Assembly (NCBI RefSeq): GCF_000970465.2
Contig: NZ_LAJE02000123.1
Location: 1-36,850, forward strand
Length of the DNA: 36,850 nucleotides
DNA from: Devosia insulae DS-56
GTDB taxonomy: Bacteria; Pseudomonadota; Alphaproteobacteria; Rhizobiales; Devosiaceae
Direction: 5' to 3'
Shown here piece after piece: positions 5,223 through 33,603 of this stretch. The stretch's first letter is position 1. Every line of letters begins with the position of its first letter. The notes under the pieces are model-generated. The model searched no databases. It saw only the letters and a list, made by a program, of their open reading frames with translations, and was not told the origin of the DNA. The position numbers and the translations under genes are program-made.

Positions 5223-5258
5223 TGGTGATGCTCCTTCAGTCCATGCCCACCCACCGCC

Positions 5259-5353
5259 GTCATTCCCGCGAAGGCGGGAACCTAGTGCCGAGCCCACCGC
5301 AGACGCGGTACGTGCGGCACCATCGCCTGGGTTCCCGCCTTCGCGGGAATGAC
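5259..5353. repeat. Palindromic repeat family A, copy 1
   Basis: Two 24-bp arms, GTCATTCCCGCGAAGG... (5259-5282) and its exact reverse complement (5330-5353), flank a 47-bp centre. Each arm is itself a small hairpin (CCCGC-GAAG-GCGGG). Related copies lie at 12207-12289, 12383-12408 (one arm) and 30061-30143. The right arm supplies an in-frame ATG at 5349 upstream of flbD, which should not be mistaken for the gene start. Confidence 0.85.
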
Positions 5354-5393
5354 ATCGCGGCCTTGGCCTCTCTCTCTCTGCGGCAGGAATAAC

Positions 5394-6764
<1,371 letters not shown>

Positions 6765-6780: not shown

Positions 6781-6982
6781 AGACGGCCCCCTCCCATCCT
6801 CCCCCATGAAGGGGGAGGTGCCGCATCGAGCGTTTGGCACCATCGAGCCACGGGCCCAACTCTTCACCTCCCACTTCATGGGGGACTTCGAGCCGTCCCG
6901 TAGGGAAAATCGCTCCAGTGGAGCGATTTTAGGCGAGAAGGCCATGAGAGCTACGCTCGAATGGCGAGGGAGGGGGCCGTCT
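6781..6982. repeat. Structured palindromic repeat family C, copy 1
   Basis: This 202-bp element is shared with 32505-32708. The ends are perfect 15-bp inverted repeats (6781-6795 with 6968-6982). Inside are a 20-bp stem with one mismatch (6801-6820 with 6865-6884), a 7-bp stem TTCGAGC/GCTCGAA (6887-6893 with 6955-6961), and an 11-bp hairpin with loop AGT (6906-6930). Differences from copy 2 preserve pairing at three places. It fills the flbD-flhA gap, so it would be transcribed in the flagellar mRNA if there is no internal promoter. Confidence 0.9.
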
Positions 6983-7013: not shown

Positions 7014-9143
7014 GTGGCTGATCTCTCCGCCCCCGGCCCATCCGGCCTGAAGCTTCCGACCTTCTCGATCCAGGGGCTGTGGAAGTCGTTCGGCACGTCC
7101 GATATCGGGCTCGCCATCGGCATCATGGGGATCATCGTCGTCCTCATCGTGCCGCTGCCGCCGCTGCTGCTCGACCTGCTGCTGGCCATCTCGATCGTCT
7201 TTTCAGTGCTGATCCTGATGACGGCACTGTTCATCCAGACGCCGCTCGAGTTCTCGGCCTTTCCCACGGTACTGCTGATCGCCGCCATGTTGCGGTTGGC
7301 GCTGAACCTCGCCACCACCCGCCTGATCCTCTCCGAGGGCCATAACGGCACCGATGCGGCCGGTCACGTCATCGAGGCGTTCGGCAACTTCGTCATGCGC
7401 GGCAACTTCGTCATCGGCGTCGTCGTCTTTGCCATCCTGATCATCGTCAACTTCATCGTCATCACCAAGGGCTCGGGCCGCATCGCCGAAGTCGCAGCGC
7501 GCTTCAACCTCGACGCCATGCCGGGCAAGCAGATGGCCATCGACGCCGACCTCTCGGCCGGCCTGATCGATGAGGCCACCGCGCGCAAACGCCGCGAAAA
7601 CCTCGAGGCGGAGAGCGCATTTTTCGGCAACATGGATGGTGCGTCGAAGTTCGTGCGCGGCGACGCCATCGCGGGCCTCCTCATCACCTTCATCAACATC
7701 ATCGCCGGCCTGATCATCGGCATGCTGCAGGAAGGCCTGACCTTCGCCGAAGCCGGCCATAACTATACCCTGCTCACCGTCGGCGACGGCCTCGTCAGCC
7801 AGATCCCGGCGCTGATCGTCTCGACCGCGGCGGGCCTCCTGGTCTCGAAAGCCGGCGTCACCGGCTCGGCCGACAAGGCGCTGGTCGCCCAGTTCACCGG
7901 CTACCCCAAGGCGCTCGGCATGTCGGCCGCCGTCATCGGCGCGCTGGCGCTGCTGCCGGGCATGCCGATCATCCCGTTCCTGGCGCTCGCCGCCGGCTGC
8001 GGCTGGCTCGCCTTCAAGTCGGGCAGGAAGAAAACCGCAACCGCCGATCGCGCCATCGTCGAGGCGGCCATGGAGCATGCCCAGGCCAACCCGGTCGCCA
8101 CGGAAGCGCCGATCTCCGACAGTCTCAGGATCGACGAGCTGAAGCTCGAGCTCGGGTACGGCCTGCTGTCACTGGTCAAGGAAGACGATACCGGCACCGA
8201 TCGGCTCACCGAGCAGATCAAGGCGCTGCGCCGGCAGCTCGCCACCGAGCTCGGCTTCATCATGCCGCCGGTTCGCATCCTCGACAACATGCAGCTCGAG
8301 CCCAACGACTATAAGGTCAAGATCAAGGAGGTCGATGCCGGCCGCGGCCAGATCTTCGCGCACCAGCTGATGGTGATGGATCCGATGGGCCGGGAGATCA
8401 ACCTGCCCGGCGTCCATACCACCGAGCCGACCTTCGGCCTGCCTGCCACCTGGATCGAGCCGGCGCTGCGTGACGAAGCGGAGCTGCGCGGCTACTCGAT
8501 CATCGACCCCTCGACCGTCATCTCGACGCACCTGACCGAGGTGCTGAAGGCCAACGTCTCGGACCTCCTGAGCTACGCCAACGTACAGTCGCTGCTTGCC
8601 GGGTTGTCGAAGGACCAGCAGAAGCTGGTCGAGGACATCGTCCCCAGCCAGATCTCGGTCTCGGGCGTGCAGCGCGTGCTGCAGACCCTGCTGATCGAGC
8701 GCATCTCGATCCGCGACCTGCCCACCATTCTCGAAGGCATCGCGGAGATCGCCGGCCCTGGCCGCACCGCCCAGACCATCGCCGAGCACGTGCGTTCGCG
8801 CCTCGCCCGTCAGCTCTGCGCCGCCAATCTGGGGCCGGACGGCAACCTGCCGCTGCTCACCCTGTCGCCGCAGTGGGAACGGGATTTCGCCGAGGCGCTG
8901 GTCGGTGACGGCAATGACCGCCACCTCGCCATGGCCCCGTCGCGCCTGCAGCAGTTCATCGTCGGCATCCAGCAGGGTTTTGAGAACGCCGCCCAGATGG
9001 GCGAAATCCCCGTCCTCATCACCAGCCCCGGCATCCGCCCACACGTCCGCGCCATCATCGAACGCTTCCGCCCGCAAACCGTGGTGATGAGCCAGAACGA
9101 AGTGCACCCGCGCGTCCGGCTGAAGACCATCGGGAGTGTTTGA
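7014..9143 (+). CDS. flhA: Flagellar export gate protein FlhA
   Basis: FlhA is the large membrane component of the flagellar type III export gate and receives substrate-chaperone complexes through its cytoplasmic domain. The 709 residues match the family. The N-terminal half has about eight membrane helices. The conserved FHIPEP-family cytoplasmic loop (about residues 140-220) includes GSGRIAEVAARFNLDAMPGK and the charged ARKRRENLEAESAFFGNMDGASKFV. From about residue 350 the soluble domain starts (LELGYGLLSLV). I take the GTG at 7014 as start because GGAG lies 7 nt upstream and the family's short cytoplasmic leader follows. It is the last gene in this flagellar block and is convergent with the next gene. 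Confidence 0.96.
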   Translation: MADLSAPGPSGLKLPTFSIQGLWKSFGTSDIGLAIGIMGIIVVLIVPLPPLLLDLLLAISIVFSVLILMTALFIQTPLEFSAFPTVLLIAAMLRLALNLATTRLILSEGHNGTDAAGHVIEAFGNFVMRGNFVIGVVVFAILIIVNFIVITKGSGRIAEVAARFNLDAMPGKQMAIDADLSAGLIDEATARKRRENLEAESAFFGNMDGASKFVRGDAIAGLLITFINIIAGLIIGMLQEGLTFAEAGHNYTLLTVGDGLVSQIPALIVSTAAGLLVSKAGVTGSADKALVAQFTGYPKALGMSAAVIGALALLPGMPIIPFLALAAGCGWLAFKSGRKKTATADRAIVEAAMEHAQANPVATEAPISDSLRIDELKLELGYGLLSLVKEDDTGTDRLTEQIKALRRQLATELGFIMPPVRILDNMQLEPNDYKVKIKEVDAGRGQIFAHQLMVMDPMGREINLPGVHTTEPTFGLPATWIEPALRDEAELRGYSIIDPSTVISTHLTEVLKANVSDLLSYANVQSLLAGLSKDQQKLVEDIVPSQISVSGVQRVLQTLLIERISIRDLPTILEGIAEIAGPGRTAQTIAEHVRSRLARQLCAANLGPDGNLPLLTLSPQWERDFAEALVGDGNDRHLAMAPSRLQQFIVGIQQGFENAAQMGEIPVLITSPGIRPHVRAIIERFRPQTVVMSQNEVHPRVRLKTIGSV

Positions 9144-12094: not shown

Positions 12095-12206
12095 ATTTGA
12101 TCGGGCCTTTGACCTCCCACTGGCGTAGCGGGTGGGGCGGCATCCAACTGCTCTCTACTAGGCACGCATCGGCGACCTTTCCACCACAAAACGCCCCAGG
12201 CTCGGT

Positions 12207-12289
12207 GTCATCCCCGCGAAAGCGGGGACCTCCGTTTGAGATGGTGCCGCAGGCAAGAAAACAGAGGTTCCCGCTTTCGCGGGAATGAC
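12207..12289. repeat. Palindromic repeat family A, copy 2
   Basis: Left arm GTCATCCCCGCGAAAGCGGG (12207 onward) and right arm ending CGCGGGAATGAC (to 12289) form an inverted repeat, with further pairing outside through CGGT/CCCAGTGGG. It is closest to the copy at 30061-30143: both have GACCTCCGTTTG after the left arm and AAAACAGAG before the right arm. Confidence 0.85.
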
Positions 12290-12382
12290 CCAGTGGGTGG
12301 AGCGCGGCCATAACTTCGCGCACGCGCGAGAGGCGGAACGCGGTGAAATTTCTCAGTCGTAGCGGGTGCTGCAACATCCCAC

Positions 12383-13240: not shown

Positions 13241-14206
13241 ATGTTCCGTACCCTTATGACCACCACTGCCGTCGTCGCCCTGCTCACCGCAGGCGCCATG
13301 GCACAGGACGCCGCCCCCGCAACCACGGAAGCTCCGGCCGTGACGACCGAAGCGCCGGCGGCTCCGCTCGACACCTCGATCCTCGCTTCCGGCTACTCGG
13401 TTACCGACAAGGATAATCTCGCGACCGAAATCATCGGCAAGCAGGTCTACTCGTCCAGCGCTGCCGACGCCGAGCATATCGGCGACGTCAACAACCTGGT
13501 GATCGGTGAAGGCGGCGAAGTCGCCGCCGTGGTCATCGGGGTCGGCGGCTTCCTCGGCATCGGCGAAAAGAACGTCGCTGTGAACTATGCCGAACTCGAA
13601 TGGGTCACCGCCGAGGACGGCAGCGAGCGTTTCGTACTGGCGACCTCCAAGGAAGCGCTGGAGACCGCCCCGACCTTCGAGACCACAGATGCGGCAGCCC
13701 CGGCAGCCGACGGCACGATGGCGCCAGCCGAACAGCCGGCAGATGCGATGGCTCCGGCCGACCAGCCCGCCGACGCCATGGCCCCGGCCGAACAACCATC
13801 AGATGCCATGGCTCCGGCCGACCAGCCCGCCGACACCATGGCTCCGGCCAGCCCGATCGATCGCGCCACGCTGACTGATGCGCCACTCACCGCTGAAGAG
13901 CTGATCGGCACCAATGCCTATGGCCCGGGTGACGAGCACCTCGGTGCCATTGGCGACGTGATCCTCGGCGCCGACGGCAAGGCCGTCGATGCGGTGATCA
14001 TCGATTTCGGTGGCTTCCTCGGCATCGGCACCAAGCCGGTGGCCGTTGCGGTTGAGAACCTGCGCTTCGCCACCAACGCGAACGGCGACAAGTTCCTGTT
14101 CCTCAACGTGACGCGCGATCAGCTCGACAAGGCCGTGGCCTACAACAAGGACACCTGGGAAGCCGAGCGCGACGCGCAGCTGCTGAAGACCGACGACCTG
14201 CAGTAA
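13241..14206 (+). CDS. Exported protein with two PRC-barrel-like domains
   Basis: A signal peptide (residues 1-21, TTTAVVALLTAGAMAQDA) is followed by an Ala/Pro/Thr-rich stretch. The first PRC-barrel-like domain comes next (about residues 55-140, IIGKQVYSSSAADAEHIGDV and VAAVVIGVGGFLGIGEKNVAV), then a low-complexity linker. The second domain (about 223-305) contains LIGTNAYGPGDEHLGAIGDV and VDAVIIDFGGFLGIGTKPVAV. The linker holds 4.4 copies of a 10-residue unit MAPAxQPxDA in which E and D alternate, encoded by 30-bp DNA repeats at 13718-13849. PRC-barrel proteins with signal peptides are common in Hyphomicrobiales and often stress-induced; the promoter upstream supports this. The molecular function is unknown. 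Confidence 0.85.
   Translation: MFRTLMTTTAVVALLTAGAMAQDAAPATTEAPAVTTEAPAAPLDTSILASGYSVTDKDNLATEIIGKQVYSSSAADAEHIGDVNNLVIGEGGEVAAVVIGVGGFLGIGEKNVAVNYAELEWVTAEDGSERFVLATSKEALETAPTFETTDAAAPAADGTMAPAEQPADAMAPADQPADAMAPAEQPSDAMAPADQPADTMAPASPIDRATLTDAPLTAEELIGTNAYGPGDEHLGAIGDVILGADGKAVDAVIIDFGGFLGIGTKPVAVAVENLRFATNANGDKFLFLNVTRDQLDKAVAYNKDTWEAERDAQLLKTDDLQ
13718..13849 (+). repeat. 30-bp in-frame tandem repeat in the PRC-barrel gene
   Basis: There are four full units (13718, 13748, 13778 and 13808) and a 12-bp partial unit, each encoding MAPA-(E/D)-QP-(A/S)-D-(A/T). Units 2 and 4 are nearly identical to each other, and units 1 and 3 share the E form. This suggests duplication of a 60-bp pair. Copy number may vary between strains. 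Confidence 0.85.
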
Positions 14207-30021: not shown

Positions 30022-30060
30022 GGCACTACTGAGAGGAACCGTTCCCTCCACCCACTCGGT

Positions 30061-30143
30061 GTCATCCCCGCGAAAGCGGGGACCTCCGTTTGCGATCTCG
30101 CGGGTGGCACCAAAACAGAGGTTCCCGCTTTCGCGGGAATGAC
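30061..30143. repeat. Palindromic repeat family A, copy 3
   Basis: The arms GTCATCCCCGCGAAAGCGGG... (30061-30085) and ...CCCGCTTTCGCGGGAATGAC (to 30143) are inverted repeats. Outer extensions CCACCCACTCGGT and CCGGTGGGT also pair partly. It is closest to the copy at 12207-12289. It lies between rluD and rpoH and may sit in the rpoH leader if transcription reads through. Confidence 0.85.
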
Positions 30144-30374
30144 CCGGTGGGTAAAGGCGAGACTGCTGGCAAGCTCCGCCGAGCGTCGCCGCAGGCCAAA
30201 TGCCCACCTGCAAGGTTCACGCAACCTTCGGGGTCTACCAACGTTTTCATGCAGGGTCGGTGGGTCTTATCAAGACCGATTTTCGACCTATATATCTCTG
30301 ACAGTCAGCCGTGTGCCGGACTGGACACGGCTGCGTATCTGCCCGTGACTACGGGGGAAAGACGAGGGTGCATT

Positions 30375-31544: not shown

Positions 31545-32405
31545 TCAGCCGTTCTGCGGCGGTCCGATCACCGGTACCACCGCCGGACGCGGTTGTTGCG
31601 CCCAGGCGAACTCGCCCTTGCCCCATTTGGCGAACCGCGCCAGCAGCGCATCGCGGGCTCGCATGCCGGCCGGGCCGGCGGTCTTCTTGTTCTCGCGGAT
31701 CAGGTAGGCGAAGGCCAGCCGCTCGCCATCACGTTCGGCCCAGCCGACGAACCAGCCGGTCTGCCGGCGCGAGTTGAACGTTCCGTCGGCATTGCGCTCA
31801 TAATAGGTGCCGGTTTTGCCCGAGACGGTCCATTTGCCGGCCGTGAAGCTCGGCATGATGGCGACCACTGCCGCCTGTGCTTCAGCCGACGCCGGCAGTT
31901 CGCCGGCCAGCATCCGCCGCACGAACCGCACCTGCTCTTCCGGCGTGATCAGCAGCGACGAGTTGATCCACGAGCGCAGCAGACTGTTGTTCTTCCCCGG
32001 ATCGCCCGAGATATCGGCATTGCCATAGTCGAAATCGCTGACGTACTTGCCGAACCGCTCAGCACCCATCTCGGCCACCAGCACGCGCGAGTACCAGAGC
32101 ACCGAATCGCGCAACCAGGTGGTGGGTGTAGTGGTCACCTTCCAGTCGGCCCGGTTCGCGTCATACTCAGCTTTGTACGGCCAGGCCGGCTCGTCCGCGC
32201 CGGTGAGGATCCCGGCATCAAAACCCATCACCGCCAGCGGCACCTTGAACGTCGAGGCCGGCGAGGTCGGCGTGTCGCAACCGCCGCCCTCCTGCAACCG
32301 CACCGCGCTGCTCTGAGCGTCGACGATCAATGTGCACACCACTTCCGCCCGGCTCGCGGACACGGCGGCAAGGCTCAGCACTAAGGCTGCAATCAGAACT
32401 TTCAC
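31545..32405 (-). CDS. Class D (OXA-type) beta-lactamase
   Basis: The 286-residue precursor has a signal peptide (KVLIAALVLSLAAVSASRA, residues 2-20) and a serine beta-lactamase domain exported to the periplasm. The active-site motif is STFK (SPASTFKVPLAVMG), with SVL in DSVLWYSRV where class D enzymes usually have SxV, then YGN in SDFDYGNADISG and KTG in TVSGKTGTYY. Together these mark class D. The one departure is Leu for Val in the second motif. I chose the GTG at 32405, which begins right at the signal peptide; longer in-frame starts run into the family C repeat. There is no mobile-element gene nearby, so it looks like a resident chromosomal gene. Confidence 0.88.
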   Translation of the reverse strand: MKVLIAALVLSLAAVSASRAEVVCTLIVDAQSSAVRLQEGGGCDTPTSPASTFKVPLAVMGFDAGILTGADEPAWPYKAEYDANRADWKVTTTPTTWLRDSVLWYSRVLVAEMGAERFGKYVSDFDYGNADISGDPGKNNSLLRSWINSSLLITPEEQVRFVRRMLAGELPASAEAQAAVVAIMPSFTAGKWTVSGKTGTYYERNADGTFNSRRQTGWFVGWAERDGERLAFAYLIRENKKTAGPAGMRARDALLARFAKWGKGEFAWAQQPRPAVVPVIGPPQNG

Positions 32406-32504: not shown

Positions 32505-32708
32505 AGACGACCCCCTCCCATCCTCCCCCATAAAGCGGGAGGTGCCCGGCTGGTGTGTTTGGCACGATCGAAGACAGCGCCTCGACTCTTCACCTCCCCC
32601 TTTATGGGGGACTTCGAGCCGTCCCGAAGGGCAAATCGCTCCAGTGGAGCGATTTGAGGGGAGAAGGCCATGAGAGCTGCGCTCGAATGGCGAGGGAGGG
32701 GGTCGTCT
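32505..32708. repeat. Structured palindromic repeat family C, copy 2
   Basis: This 204-bp element is shared with 6781-6982. It has perfect 15-bp terminal inverted repeats (32505-32519 with 32694-32708), a 20-bp stem with one mismatch (32525-32544 with 32591-32610), a 7-bp stem (32613-32619 with 32681-32687), and an 11-bp hairpin with loop AGT (32632-32656). The right end stops 8 bp from the thiamine pyrophosphokinase stop codon. Confidence 0.9.
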
Positions 32709-32715
32709 CTATCAG

Positions 32716-33414
32716 TCAGCGCTTCTCCAACAGCAGCTTCGCGATCAACTGCGCCAGGTACTTCCGCGGCAGGATCAGGAGGTATGGCGCATGCACGCCC
32801 TCTTCCGGCACGATCCTGAACGGCCCGGTCAGCGCCTCGTTCGAGGTCCCGGTCCGCACTCCCGGCGCCAGCTTCACCGCGTCGAGCGGGTATTTCAGCC
32901 CTTCCGAGGTCCAGAAGGTTATCGCCGCCAGTGGGTGGATGGAGACGCGCTCGCCGGGATCGACCGTGAATGAGAACGCCTTGGTCAGCGGCAGCGCCAC
33001 GTCCTCTTCGTCGACCAGCACGATCTTGCGCTTTGCCGCGTACTTGGTCACCGCATCGAGCGCTGCCAGCGTGTGGTCGAAGCGTCGCCCGGTCATCCCC
33101 AGCGCCACCGTCACCGGCGCACGGGTCGAATACAGCGACTTCTCGAAATCGGTGGTTTCCTGCTCGCTGATCTGCATCAGCCGGGTCTTGCCCAGCCAGG
33201 AGTGCGGGTTCTTCAGCGAATCGAAATCGCCGATGATCAGCTCAGGCTTGAGGCCGGCCTCGACGATCTGGTCGGCTCCGCCATCGGCCCCGACCAGGTG
33301 GCCGCCCGAAGCGTAGAGCTCGCGCAGGAGGTCGAAATCGACCGTCCCGCCGCCAACGATGACCATCAGGTCGTCAAAGACCGCAACGGAAGTCTGGGGG
33401 GCACGCGCTTGCAC
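32716..33414 (-). CDS. Thiamine pyrophosphokinase
   Basis: The enzyme transfers pyrophosphate from ATP to thiamine, giving the cofactor thiamine diphosphate. The 232 residues fit the family. The catalytic domain contains MVIVGGGTVDFDLL, GADGGADQIVEAGLKPELII-GDFDS (metal- and ATP-binding Asp cluster), QETTDFEKSL and ALGMTGRRFDHTLAAL. The C-terminal beta-sandwich binds thiamine (about 140-230; GERVSIHPLA, GLKYPLDAVKLAPGV, GTSNEALTG). The frame is open to 33489, but that part overlaps the TPP riboswitch on the other strand. I took the GTG at 33414; ATG 33366 (MVIVGGG) is possible but would drop family-like residues. It is divergent from thiBPQ, which imports its substrate. Confidence 0.88.
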   Translation of the reverse strand: MQARAPQTSVAVFDDLMVIVGGGTVDFDLLRELYASGGHLVGADGGADQIVEAGLKPELIIGDFDSLKNPHSWLGKTRLMQISEQETTDFEKSLYSTRAPVTVALGMTGRRFDHTLAALDAVTKYAAKRKIVLVDEEDVALPLTKAFSFTVDPGERVSIHPLAAITFWTSEGLKYPLDAVKLAPGVRTGTSNEALTGPFRIVPEEGVHAPYLLILPRKYLAQLIAKLLLEKR

Positions 33415-33449
33415 GGAGGGAAAACTCTGTCTATCTGTCAGCTGTCTCG

Positions 33450-33525
33450 CTGGGGTGTTCCGGGTCTTCCGGAGCTGAGAGTTACCCATTGAACCTGAAC
33501 CAGGTCATGCTGGCGGAGGAAGTTC
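33450..33525 (+). promoter_or_regulatory. TPP riboswitch (THI element)
   Basis: The conserved blocks are all present in order: GGGGTG (33452-33457), CTGAGA (33475-33480), ACCC (33484-33487), TTGAACCTGA (33489-33498) and GGTCATGCTGGCGGAGGAA (33503-33521). The order and spacing match the thiamine-diphosphate aptamer. It stands 80 nt before thiB. No intrinsic terminator follows; instead GTCCCCTTC (33563-33571) can pair with GAAGGGAAC (33590-33598), which includes the thiB ribosome binding site, pointing to control of translation. Confidence 0.92.
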
Positions 33526-33603
33526 GAGATGGCAAGGGCGCGACAGCGTCCGATCCATTGACGTCCCCTTCATTCACATGGCCGCAACCGAAGGGAACGA
33601 CTT

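Follow-up and report, generated by a model that had tools for sequence, protein, structure and literature searches.

Two copies of a ~203-bp inverted repeat lie in the window, that is, the whole stretch of 36,850 nt analysed here (Devosia insulae DS-56, contig NZ_LAJE02000123.1, positions 1-36,850, assembly GCF_000970465.2). A sequence-only reading of this DNA had pointed to three places, in the 15-bp terminal repeats, in a 20-bp stem and at the outer pair of an inner hairpin, where the copies differ on both sides of a base pair in a way that keeps pairing. Selection for a folded RNA or a cruciform, a replication mechanism that copies one arm from the other and a MITE-like element had been offered as explanations. 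Both copies and all three double differences are present in the sequence. The locus raises the question of what this repeat is and which part of it, if any, is kept for its fold. The features concerned are as follows.

5349..6764, + strand: flbD, sigma-54-dependent regulator, upstream of copy 1 (NF050807, 809.8 bits, cut-off 750)
6781..6982, + strand: copy 1, long form (202 bp) of the host inverted-repeat element, between flbD and flhA
6781..6795, + strand: left 15-bp terminal repeat of copy 1
6886..6965, + strand: nested 80-nt structured module of copy 1 (model R1, 105.6 bits on the 89-nt stretch 6878-6966)
6968..6982, − strand: right 15-bp terminal repeat of copy 1
7014..9143, + strand: flhA, downstream of copy 1 (TIGR01398, 890 bits)
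31545-32405: class D beta-lactamase family gene adjoining copy 2 (NF000270, 300.9 bits, cut-off 280); the longest frame reaches 32531
32505..32708, + strand: copy 2, long form (204 bp) of the host element, between the class D beta-lactamase gene and the thiamine diphosphokinase gene
32612..32691, + strand: nested 80-nt structured module of copy 2 (model R1, 100.5 bits on 32604-32692); one P1 pair is G.G
32716..33489, − strand: thiamine diphosphokinase gene, ending at copy 2 and antisense to the module (TIGR01378, 109.5 bits)

Copies 1 and 2 are 88% identical over their full length, and BLAST with one copy finds the other at E 1.3e-66, far beyond chance. The window genome (5.75 Mb, 410 contigs) holds at least nine further full-length or near-full-length copies, 11 in all, with 40 of 127 first-look candidates scored. 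The window also contains a second inverted-repeat family of the GTCATTCCCGCGAAGGCGGGAACC type (12192-12304, 30055-30152 and 5251-5353), unrelated to module or host, and tandem 30-bp repeats (13707-13856) that probably lie within a coding stretch.

The host element and its two forms

We searched the window genome for the terminal repeat, allowing at most one mismatch, and found 175 half-sites compared to 12 for a reversed-pattern control; the host element is present in ~85 copies. From the fetched part of 100 listed half-sites out of the 175, 61 end pairs could be parsed: 48 short forms of 122-128 bp that lack the module, 10 long forms of 201-204 bp and 3 others. In the long form, the right-arm GGCC/GGAT of the short form gives way to an 80-bp module (CTTCGAGC...GAATGGC) plus two bases. 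Comparison of the two forms thus shows the 203-bp repeat to be a nested composite, in which a ~124-bp MITE/ERIC-like host carries an 80-nt module in the right arm of some copies. Its composite nature explains why, among the matches listed, most span only query positions 1-105.

The true ends of the host element seem to lie ~8-12 nt further out, at GCTGACTGATAG or ...GAAGC as judged by eye. They are typically of two different types, GAAGC being paired with GATAG. The spacer separating the arms was found in both orientations (L009 and L011 in the window genome; L370, L371, L373), as if the middle flips or is exchanged. One apparent host element of 1452 bp proved to be two separate elements. The MITE-like interpretation fits the host, which has terminal inverted repeats, no coding capacity and many copies; no autonomous relative with the same ends was found among the 61 paired ends parsed (from 100 of 175 half-sites listed). 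ERIC is a 127-bp repeat of enterobacteria. By description, the host element resembles ERIC and MITEs as a ~124-bp intergenic inverted repeat with a version carrying an insert at a fixed site; a TA duplication and a cognate transposase were not found.

Is the whole 203-bp repeat selected as a single folded RNA or cruciform? It can be drawn with four stems, and in the 20-bp stem the variants of the two arms agree in 32 of 52 elements against 21.7 expected (9 of 61 elements were dropped, being too long or with both stem hearts not parsed). They disagree in the other 20 of 52, however, so the double change noted in this stem is weak as a sign of pairing. The terminal-repeat change turned out to be a coincidence: 60 elements carry 53 G-C, 5 A-C, 1 G-A and 1 A-T at this position, and the sole A-T is window copy 2 itself, a single kept pair among 7 changed elements. 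The 48-element alignment likewise has 6 unpaired rows here (5 A.C and one shifted by an inserted base) and no kept changes. Many copies with unpaired substitutions in the stems, which the sequence-only reading had itself named as speaking against a selected fold, are thus what the terminal repeats present. In the alignment of 48 short elements, double changes occur in just 3 of 38 pairs and 11 cells, compared to 6.2 in shuffles (3 of 500 as high); this host-element covariation is weak, and subfamilies may be its cause. The outermost 5 bases of both ends agree in 3 of 61 elements against 10.1 by chance, i.e. less often, and 48 of the 61 parsed elements have no module at all. We give almost no credence to a fold of the whole repeat; covariation of the terminal repeats and a whole-repeat cruciform were rejected because terminal changes are mostly one-sided and host pairs hardly covary.

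Fold and covariation of the nested module

The 80-nt module behaves differently from its host. Comparison of its copies shows four helices, with P1 enclosing hairpins P2 and P3, followed by P4, and with tandem G.A pairs in P1 and P4. In copy 1 the elements of this predicted fold are:

6886..6894, + strand: P1 5′ strand, CTTCGAGCC; in many solo modules it holds the stop codon of the upstream gene
6897..6905, + strand: small hairpin P2, CCC GTA GGG
6906..6930, + strand: hairpin P3; its outer pair A6906/T6930 is C32632/G32656 in copy 2
6932..6940, + strand: P1 3′ strand, GGCGAGAAG, forming tandem G.A with the 5′ strand
6941..6965, + strand: hairpin P4, GCCAT-GA-GAGC-TAC-GCTC-GA-ATGGC, with tandem G.A

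Across the aligned modules P1 reads CUUCGAGCC / GGCGAGAAG, P3 reads AAAUCGCUCC-NGU-GGAGCGAUUU and P4 reads GCCAU-GA-GAGC-UAC-GCUC-GA-AUGGC. P4 may resemble the widespread GCCCTGAGC...GTCGAAGGGC repeat of many alphaproteobacteria.

Among 41 module copies, double changes that keep pairing were observed in 16 of 34 pairs (122 cells), a result matched in none of 500 shuffles, while versions of the structure slid along the alignment gave 6-28 cells. With 119 model hits (117 distinct) they extend to 25 of 30 pairs and 334 cells (none of 500 shuffles; slid versions 22-59), and with other families included to 25 of 30 pairs and 205 cells (best slid version 31). P3 is a near-perfect palindrome with 99% of its cells paired, and its constancy in the alignments arises partly because loci were picked by the exact P3 pattern; once copies from other families join, it covaries in 9 of 11 pairs. 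These numbers are to be read with the construction of the alignments in mind: A4-A6 were fitted to the model, A2 and A4 loci were found by the exact P3 pattern and the shuffles ignore relatedness. For A2, 34 of 96 modules were dropped for a likeness of 86% or more to another one, and of the 62 left 23 were omitted by eye (odd length or poor alignment). A4 used 100 of 111 named loci, and two of its opposite-strand hits were dropped for the gene-setting and wobble counts, the covariation counts keeping all distinct rows.

The third double difference, at the outer pair of the inner hairpin (P3), is genuine: the 117 distinct rows comprise C-G 52, A-U 46, U-A 4, G-C 3, wobble 2 and unpaired 10. The idea of selection for a folded structure is therefore strongly supported by covariation for the nested module, though not for the repeat as a whole. 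Two copies had hinted at covariation in three places, of which one held across many copies.

We then considered whether the double changes could stem from DNA template switching in quasi-palindromes, with one arm being copied to the other and no selection on an RNA. The arms are almost perfectly Watson-Crick with few wobbles and P3 is a near-perfect palindrome, as this process would leave them. It should, however, convert tandem G.A into Watson-Crick pairs, yet GA/GA is kept in 36 of 41 copies in P4. In P1, GA/GA is found in 18 of the 41 copies, two Watson-Crick pairs in 10, one in 11 and neither in 2, and the counts of 18 and 10 exceed the maxima of 2000 shuffles (17 and 6). The P1 arms are moreover 37 nt apart in the window copies, and the stop-codon setting described below stays unexplained. 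Since the G.A tandems are kept, arm-copying cannot alone account for the double changes, and we judge template switching improbable as their source. On the opposite strand the tandems would be C.T, which are not known to be stable; the + strand, as RNA or single-stranded DNA, is therefore likely the folded one. Wobble pairs are rare (46 wobble and 27 A.C among cells that include 3201 Watson-Crick) and their excess is weak (P=0.03); the broad set reverses the contrast with 15 wobble against 24 A.C (P=0.20). Given this rarity, the usual sign of RNA-level selection on the module is thin.

At the gathering threshold, Rfam 15 matches only a TPP riboswitch in the window, away from the module (33441-33538, 55.3 bits, gathering 54.3), which adjoins the thiamine diphosphokinase gene on the other strand. 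Scans at low threshold covered window copy 2, L210 and 13 fetched relatives; their best match over a module was P33 in L210, with 18.9 bits compared to 45 required. The sequence-only reading had known of no named family with this layout, which holds for Rfam 15 as searched.

Distribution of the module and its setting at gene ends

The search of the window genome and its relatives for more copies, as the sequence-only reading had suggested, revealed a module family in 14 of 16 sampled Devosia-family genera. Devosia is placed in the Devosiaceae, within the Hyphomicrobiales. The 204-bp query matches 114 of 136 Devosia-family genomes in 13 of 16 genera, and among the matches listed many genomes of other genera are covered only from ~87-107 to 187-191 of the query. 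With the exact P3 pattern we obtained at least 111 named stretches, mostly from Devosia and also from Pelagibacterium, Arsenicitalea and others. Model R1 finds the module in 44 of 61 sampled Devosia-family genomes and in none of the other 17, with 65-71 matches in five genomes (G002, G017, G024, G029, G073; 72 candidates scored) and 21 in the window genome. In an order sample R1 was positive in 18 of 199 genomes. The broader model R2 was positive in 45 of 249 genomes and 28 of 112 genera of the order and in 10 of 289 genomes of the class, own family included in both, and in 26 of 299 genomes of the phylum, all 26 belonging to the same order or class. The order, class and phylum counts are lower bounds because 15-22 candidates were scored per genome under strict filters; at this sensitivity the majority of order and class genomes have no match. 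By comparison, the module family is shown to exist also solo, in the Devosia family at large and, with a patchy distribution, in other Alphaproteobacteria.

Judged by eye, the wider consensus is GGGUGAGnnnCG-P2-P3(CC[A/G]GUGG, with exceptions)-AGnnnCGAACGCCC-GAG...CGAAGGGC. In genus g76 of family f23 (L327, L330, L331, L334), P3 is GAAAAGCCAAT[T/C]GCTTGGCTTTTC with a different loop; P3 seems to be nearly uniform inside a lineage and to differ between lineages. Head-to-tail modules occur at several loci (L160, L165, L172, L188, L301, L304, L299) and are spaced by 77-80 bp in Devosia and by some 90-105 bp in other genera. In Arsenicitalea (L210 1-158) a module directly follows the ACCA end of a tRNA gene, and in Devosia indica (L245 647-735) one closes a terminase-like gene, named by eye. 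Four IMG/VR contigs carry the module hairpin pattern; at L261, L263 and L264, from IMG/VR, the module follows the flank that it has in D. indica, which may belong to a prophage or a gene transfer agent.

To determine the gene setting, genes were called by a simple codon-usage method at 100 named loci, mostly from Devosia. Only 1 of 117 modules overlaps a called gene. An upstream gene was identified for 109 modules, 70 on the same strand and 39 on the opposite one. In 34 of the 70 same-strand modules the stop codon ends at −7 to 0 relative to P1, i.e. inside its 5′ strand or just before it; the other 36 lie 9-290 nt past the stop, and two of these, at distances of 9 and 14 nt, follow ndk genes whose stop is included in the longer R2 hit. 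Outside the Devosia family, 23 of 43 fetched modules have the stop of an open frame (at least 80 codons) at P1 and 20 do not, compared to ~0.05 expected per locus; in 21 of these 23 the stop is at −4 (UGA in GUGAG, once UAA). The stop in P1 is a UGA in GUGAG...CGAAC in other families; in Devosia it is UAG/UGA, or the stop directly precedes P1. The setting is not needed for persistence, since 39 of 109 modules have an opposite-strand upstream gene and 36 lie past the stop.

Among 32 stop-locked modules, 10 are followed within 150 nt by an intrinsic-terminator-like site; on the control strand none of the 32 is, and of the 74 other modules 4 are. These separate sites argue against the proposal that the module is a bidirectional terminator or a nucleoid-protein site whose conserved P3 palindrome is active as double-stranded DNA or as a terminator hairpin. 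No helix is more constant than P3 (partly from locus selection), its A-U variant ends in a short T run and the palindrome is operator-like, but its sequence varies between families. Since covariation includes the P1 3′ strand and P4, both of them located beyond P3, a functional RNA must extend past P3, and we consider this proposal very improbable.

Certain gene ends with a module recur: ndk, lepA, dnaA, dnaN and ychF, two to six loci each and mostly with the stop in P1 (one of each was named by NCBIfam; L255, L311, L316, L317 and L320 were assigned by eye from flank or C-terminus). Comparison of orthologous gene ends in 8 groups yields 142 double differences that keep the pair, 18 wobble, 74 breaks and 7 unpaired in both, counts that are not independent of one another. 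The ychF pair shows 8 kept and 0 broken, and the dnaA group 0 double kept, 4 wobble and 6 broken. Whole-copy replacement could mimic in-place compensation at some of these ends. The gene-end setting also brought integron attC sites to mind, whose hallmarks are R and L boxes, an integrase and a cassette array; conservation at orthologous genes speaks against this identity.

In the window, the copy 1 module lies in sense ~120 nt past the flbD stop and the copy 2 module is antisense to both neighbouring genes, so neither is within 15 nt of a stop codon in sense. On account of these positions the two modules are probably passengers away from a stop codon, and they may be idle.

Probable capture and spread, and a possible role in translation termination

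For the flbD-flhA site, loci with both flanks could be recovered from 14 of the 18 relatives searched: the short form is present in G091 and G087, a related hairpin with other ends in G088, and the others have other repeats or nothing. At the copy 2 site both flanks were found in 5 of 8 relatives, with short forms whose spacer is reversed in G088, G094 and G087 and neither form in G091 and G099. None of the orthologous loci of either site (14 and 5 relatives) holds a P3- or P4-like stretch. The simplest account is therefore that the window lineage acquired the module at both of them, through insertion or replacement from a long copy. All 10 parsed long forms share the left junction GGGGGA|CTTCGAG, with right junctions varying by 1-3 bases; this common junction suggests that the host repeat captured the module once and then spread it. 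Long forms are also present in G087, G088 and G091 among the matches listed.

These observations bear on whether the module itself is a non-autonomous mobile element, REP/REPIN-like or PATE-like, folding as single-stranded DNA that is read by a transposase acting in trans; its fold would be kept for mobility and gene ends would be tolerated targets. Its copy number is high and very uneven (some genomes have as many as 71 matches among 72 candidates scored, others have none), tandem copies stand 77-80 bp apart, it nests in other repeats and it is present or absent at orthologous sites, with the host element at ~85 copies. However, a Y1 transposase (RAYT/IS200-605 TnpA type, PF01797) was found in 0 of 12 Devosia-family genomes, high-copy ones included, the controls being positive in 5 of 14. 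Blastn of window copy 2 against 72,556 records of plasmids and 50,697 of phages gave no match (records very near the window genome were possibly excluded), and the module copy of L330 none in the plasmid collection. A target-site duplication was not visible by eye at either window site; for copy 2, where relatives without the host element are at hand, the intergenic flanks are too diverged. The recurrence of the ndk, lepA, dnaA, dnaN and ychF ends, mostly with the stop in P1, also speaks against this explanation, which we regard as possible but doubtful.

A REP is a single imperfect hairpin. Like enterobacterial REPs and BIMEs, the module is dispersed, intergenic, palindromic, sometimes tandem and often in sense at gene 3′ ends, and it shares their broad characteristics of high copy number (up to 71 per genome) and tandem copies. 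It differs in having one four-helix fold with two tandem-G.A helices, in a stop that is often inside a helix and not before it, in double changes that keep pairs at orthologous genes and, compared to RAYT-mobilised REPs and REPINs, in the missing Y1 transposase (0 of 12 genomes). Liang, Rudd and Deutscher reportedly dealt in 2015 with REPs within 15 nt of a stop codon. A stop lies within this distance in the 34 of 70 modules at −7 to 0, in one more at 9 nt, in one at 14 nt and in 23 of 43 elsewhere; by analogy, a stop codon within the helix is a stronger form of the same geometry. REPs located 15 nt or less from the stop are described as stalling ribosomes (PMC5082802, PMC12306157), and REPs also as affecting mRNA decay and blocking 3′-5′ degradation (PMC5082802). 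The action on terminating ribosomes and mRNA decay that we propose for the module would be alike.

Other known systems are less close. Br-REP1 and Br-REP2 of Bradyrhizobium are described as 3′-UTR repeats with several palindromes, seen in RNA data (PMC5082802). They are likewise alphaproteobacterial, but their two printed consensus sequences are dissimilar by eye, and the accessible parts of that description do not mention stop embedding. The L17 downstream element and other Rfam motifs were likewise discovered as structures through comparison, and one kind has its place downstream of a gene, but the module is unmatched in Rfam 15. The Rhizobiales-1 motif, which the accessible part of its source lists without an Rfam number (Weinberg 2010, PMC2864571), could be the same family. 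Among open-licence papers, judged by titles and abstract openings, we found none on this element. By analogy, the module would act like a stop-proximal REP but with a four-helix tandem-G.A fold that is not in Rfam 15.

The explanation that we favour and hold to be probable is a captured 3′-UTR RNA element that resembles a stop-proximal REP and was spread in the window lineage by a MITE-like repeat. As to its function, we infer that the module would be transcribed and folded as part of the mRNA. A terminating ribosome would open P1, and its release would let P1 close over the stop codon. Closed P1 would give a compact 3′-end structure that slows or stalls terminating ribosomes, and the same structure would block 3′ exonucleases. 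In this way the module would set translation output and mRNA life, as reported for stop-proximal REPs of E. coli. In the window lineage the host repeat would have captured and multiplied it, with the two window copies as hitch-hikers.

More tentatively, we suggest that the module may represent an undescribed class of alphaproteobacterial mRNA elements in which the stop codon is part of a helix, with UGA in the tandem sheared G.A motif GUGAG...CGAAC. Such a 'stop-codon clasp' would close only without a terminating ribosome and thereby couple termination to mRNA fate. It would have been kept at the same housekeeping genes in several lineages, its number would have risen to 71 or more per genome in the Devosia family, and a second repeat, unrelated to it, would have captured it and spread it anew. 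If this is true, a large RNA family without an Rfam name stands at the ends of such basic genes as dnaA, dnaN, ndk, lepA and ychF, and translation termination would be a structural input to mRNA control. The window would then also offer an example of a transposable-type repeat that has captured an RNA module, probably a functional one, with module-free orthologous sites for comparison.
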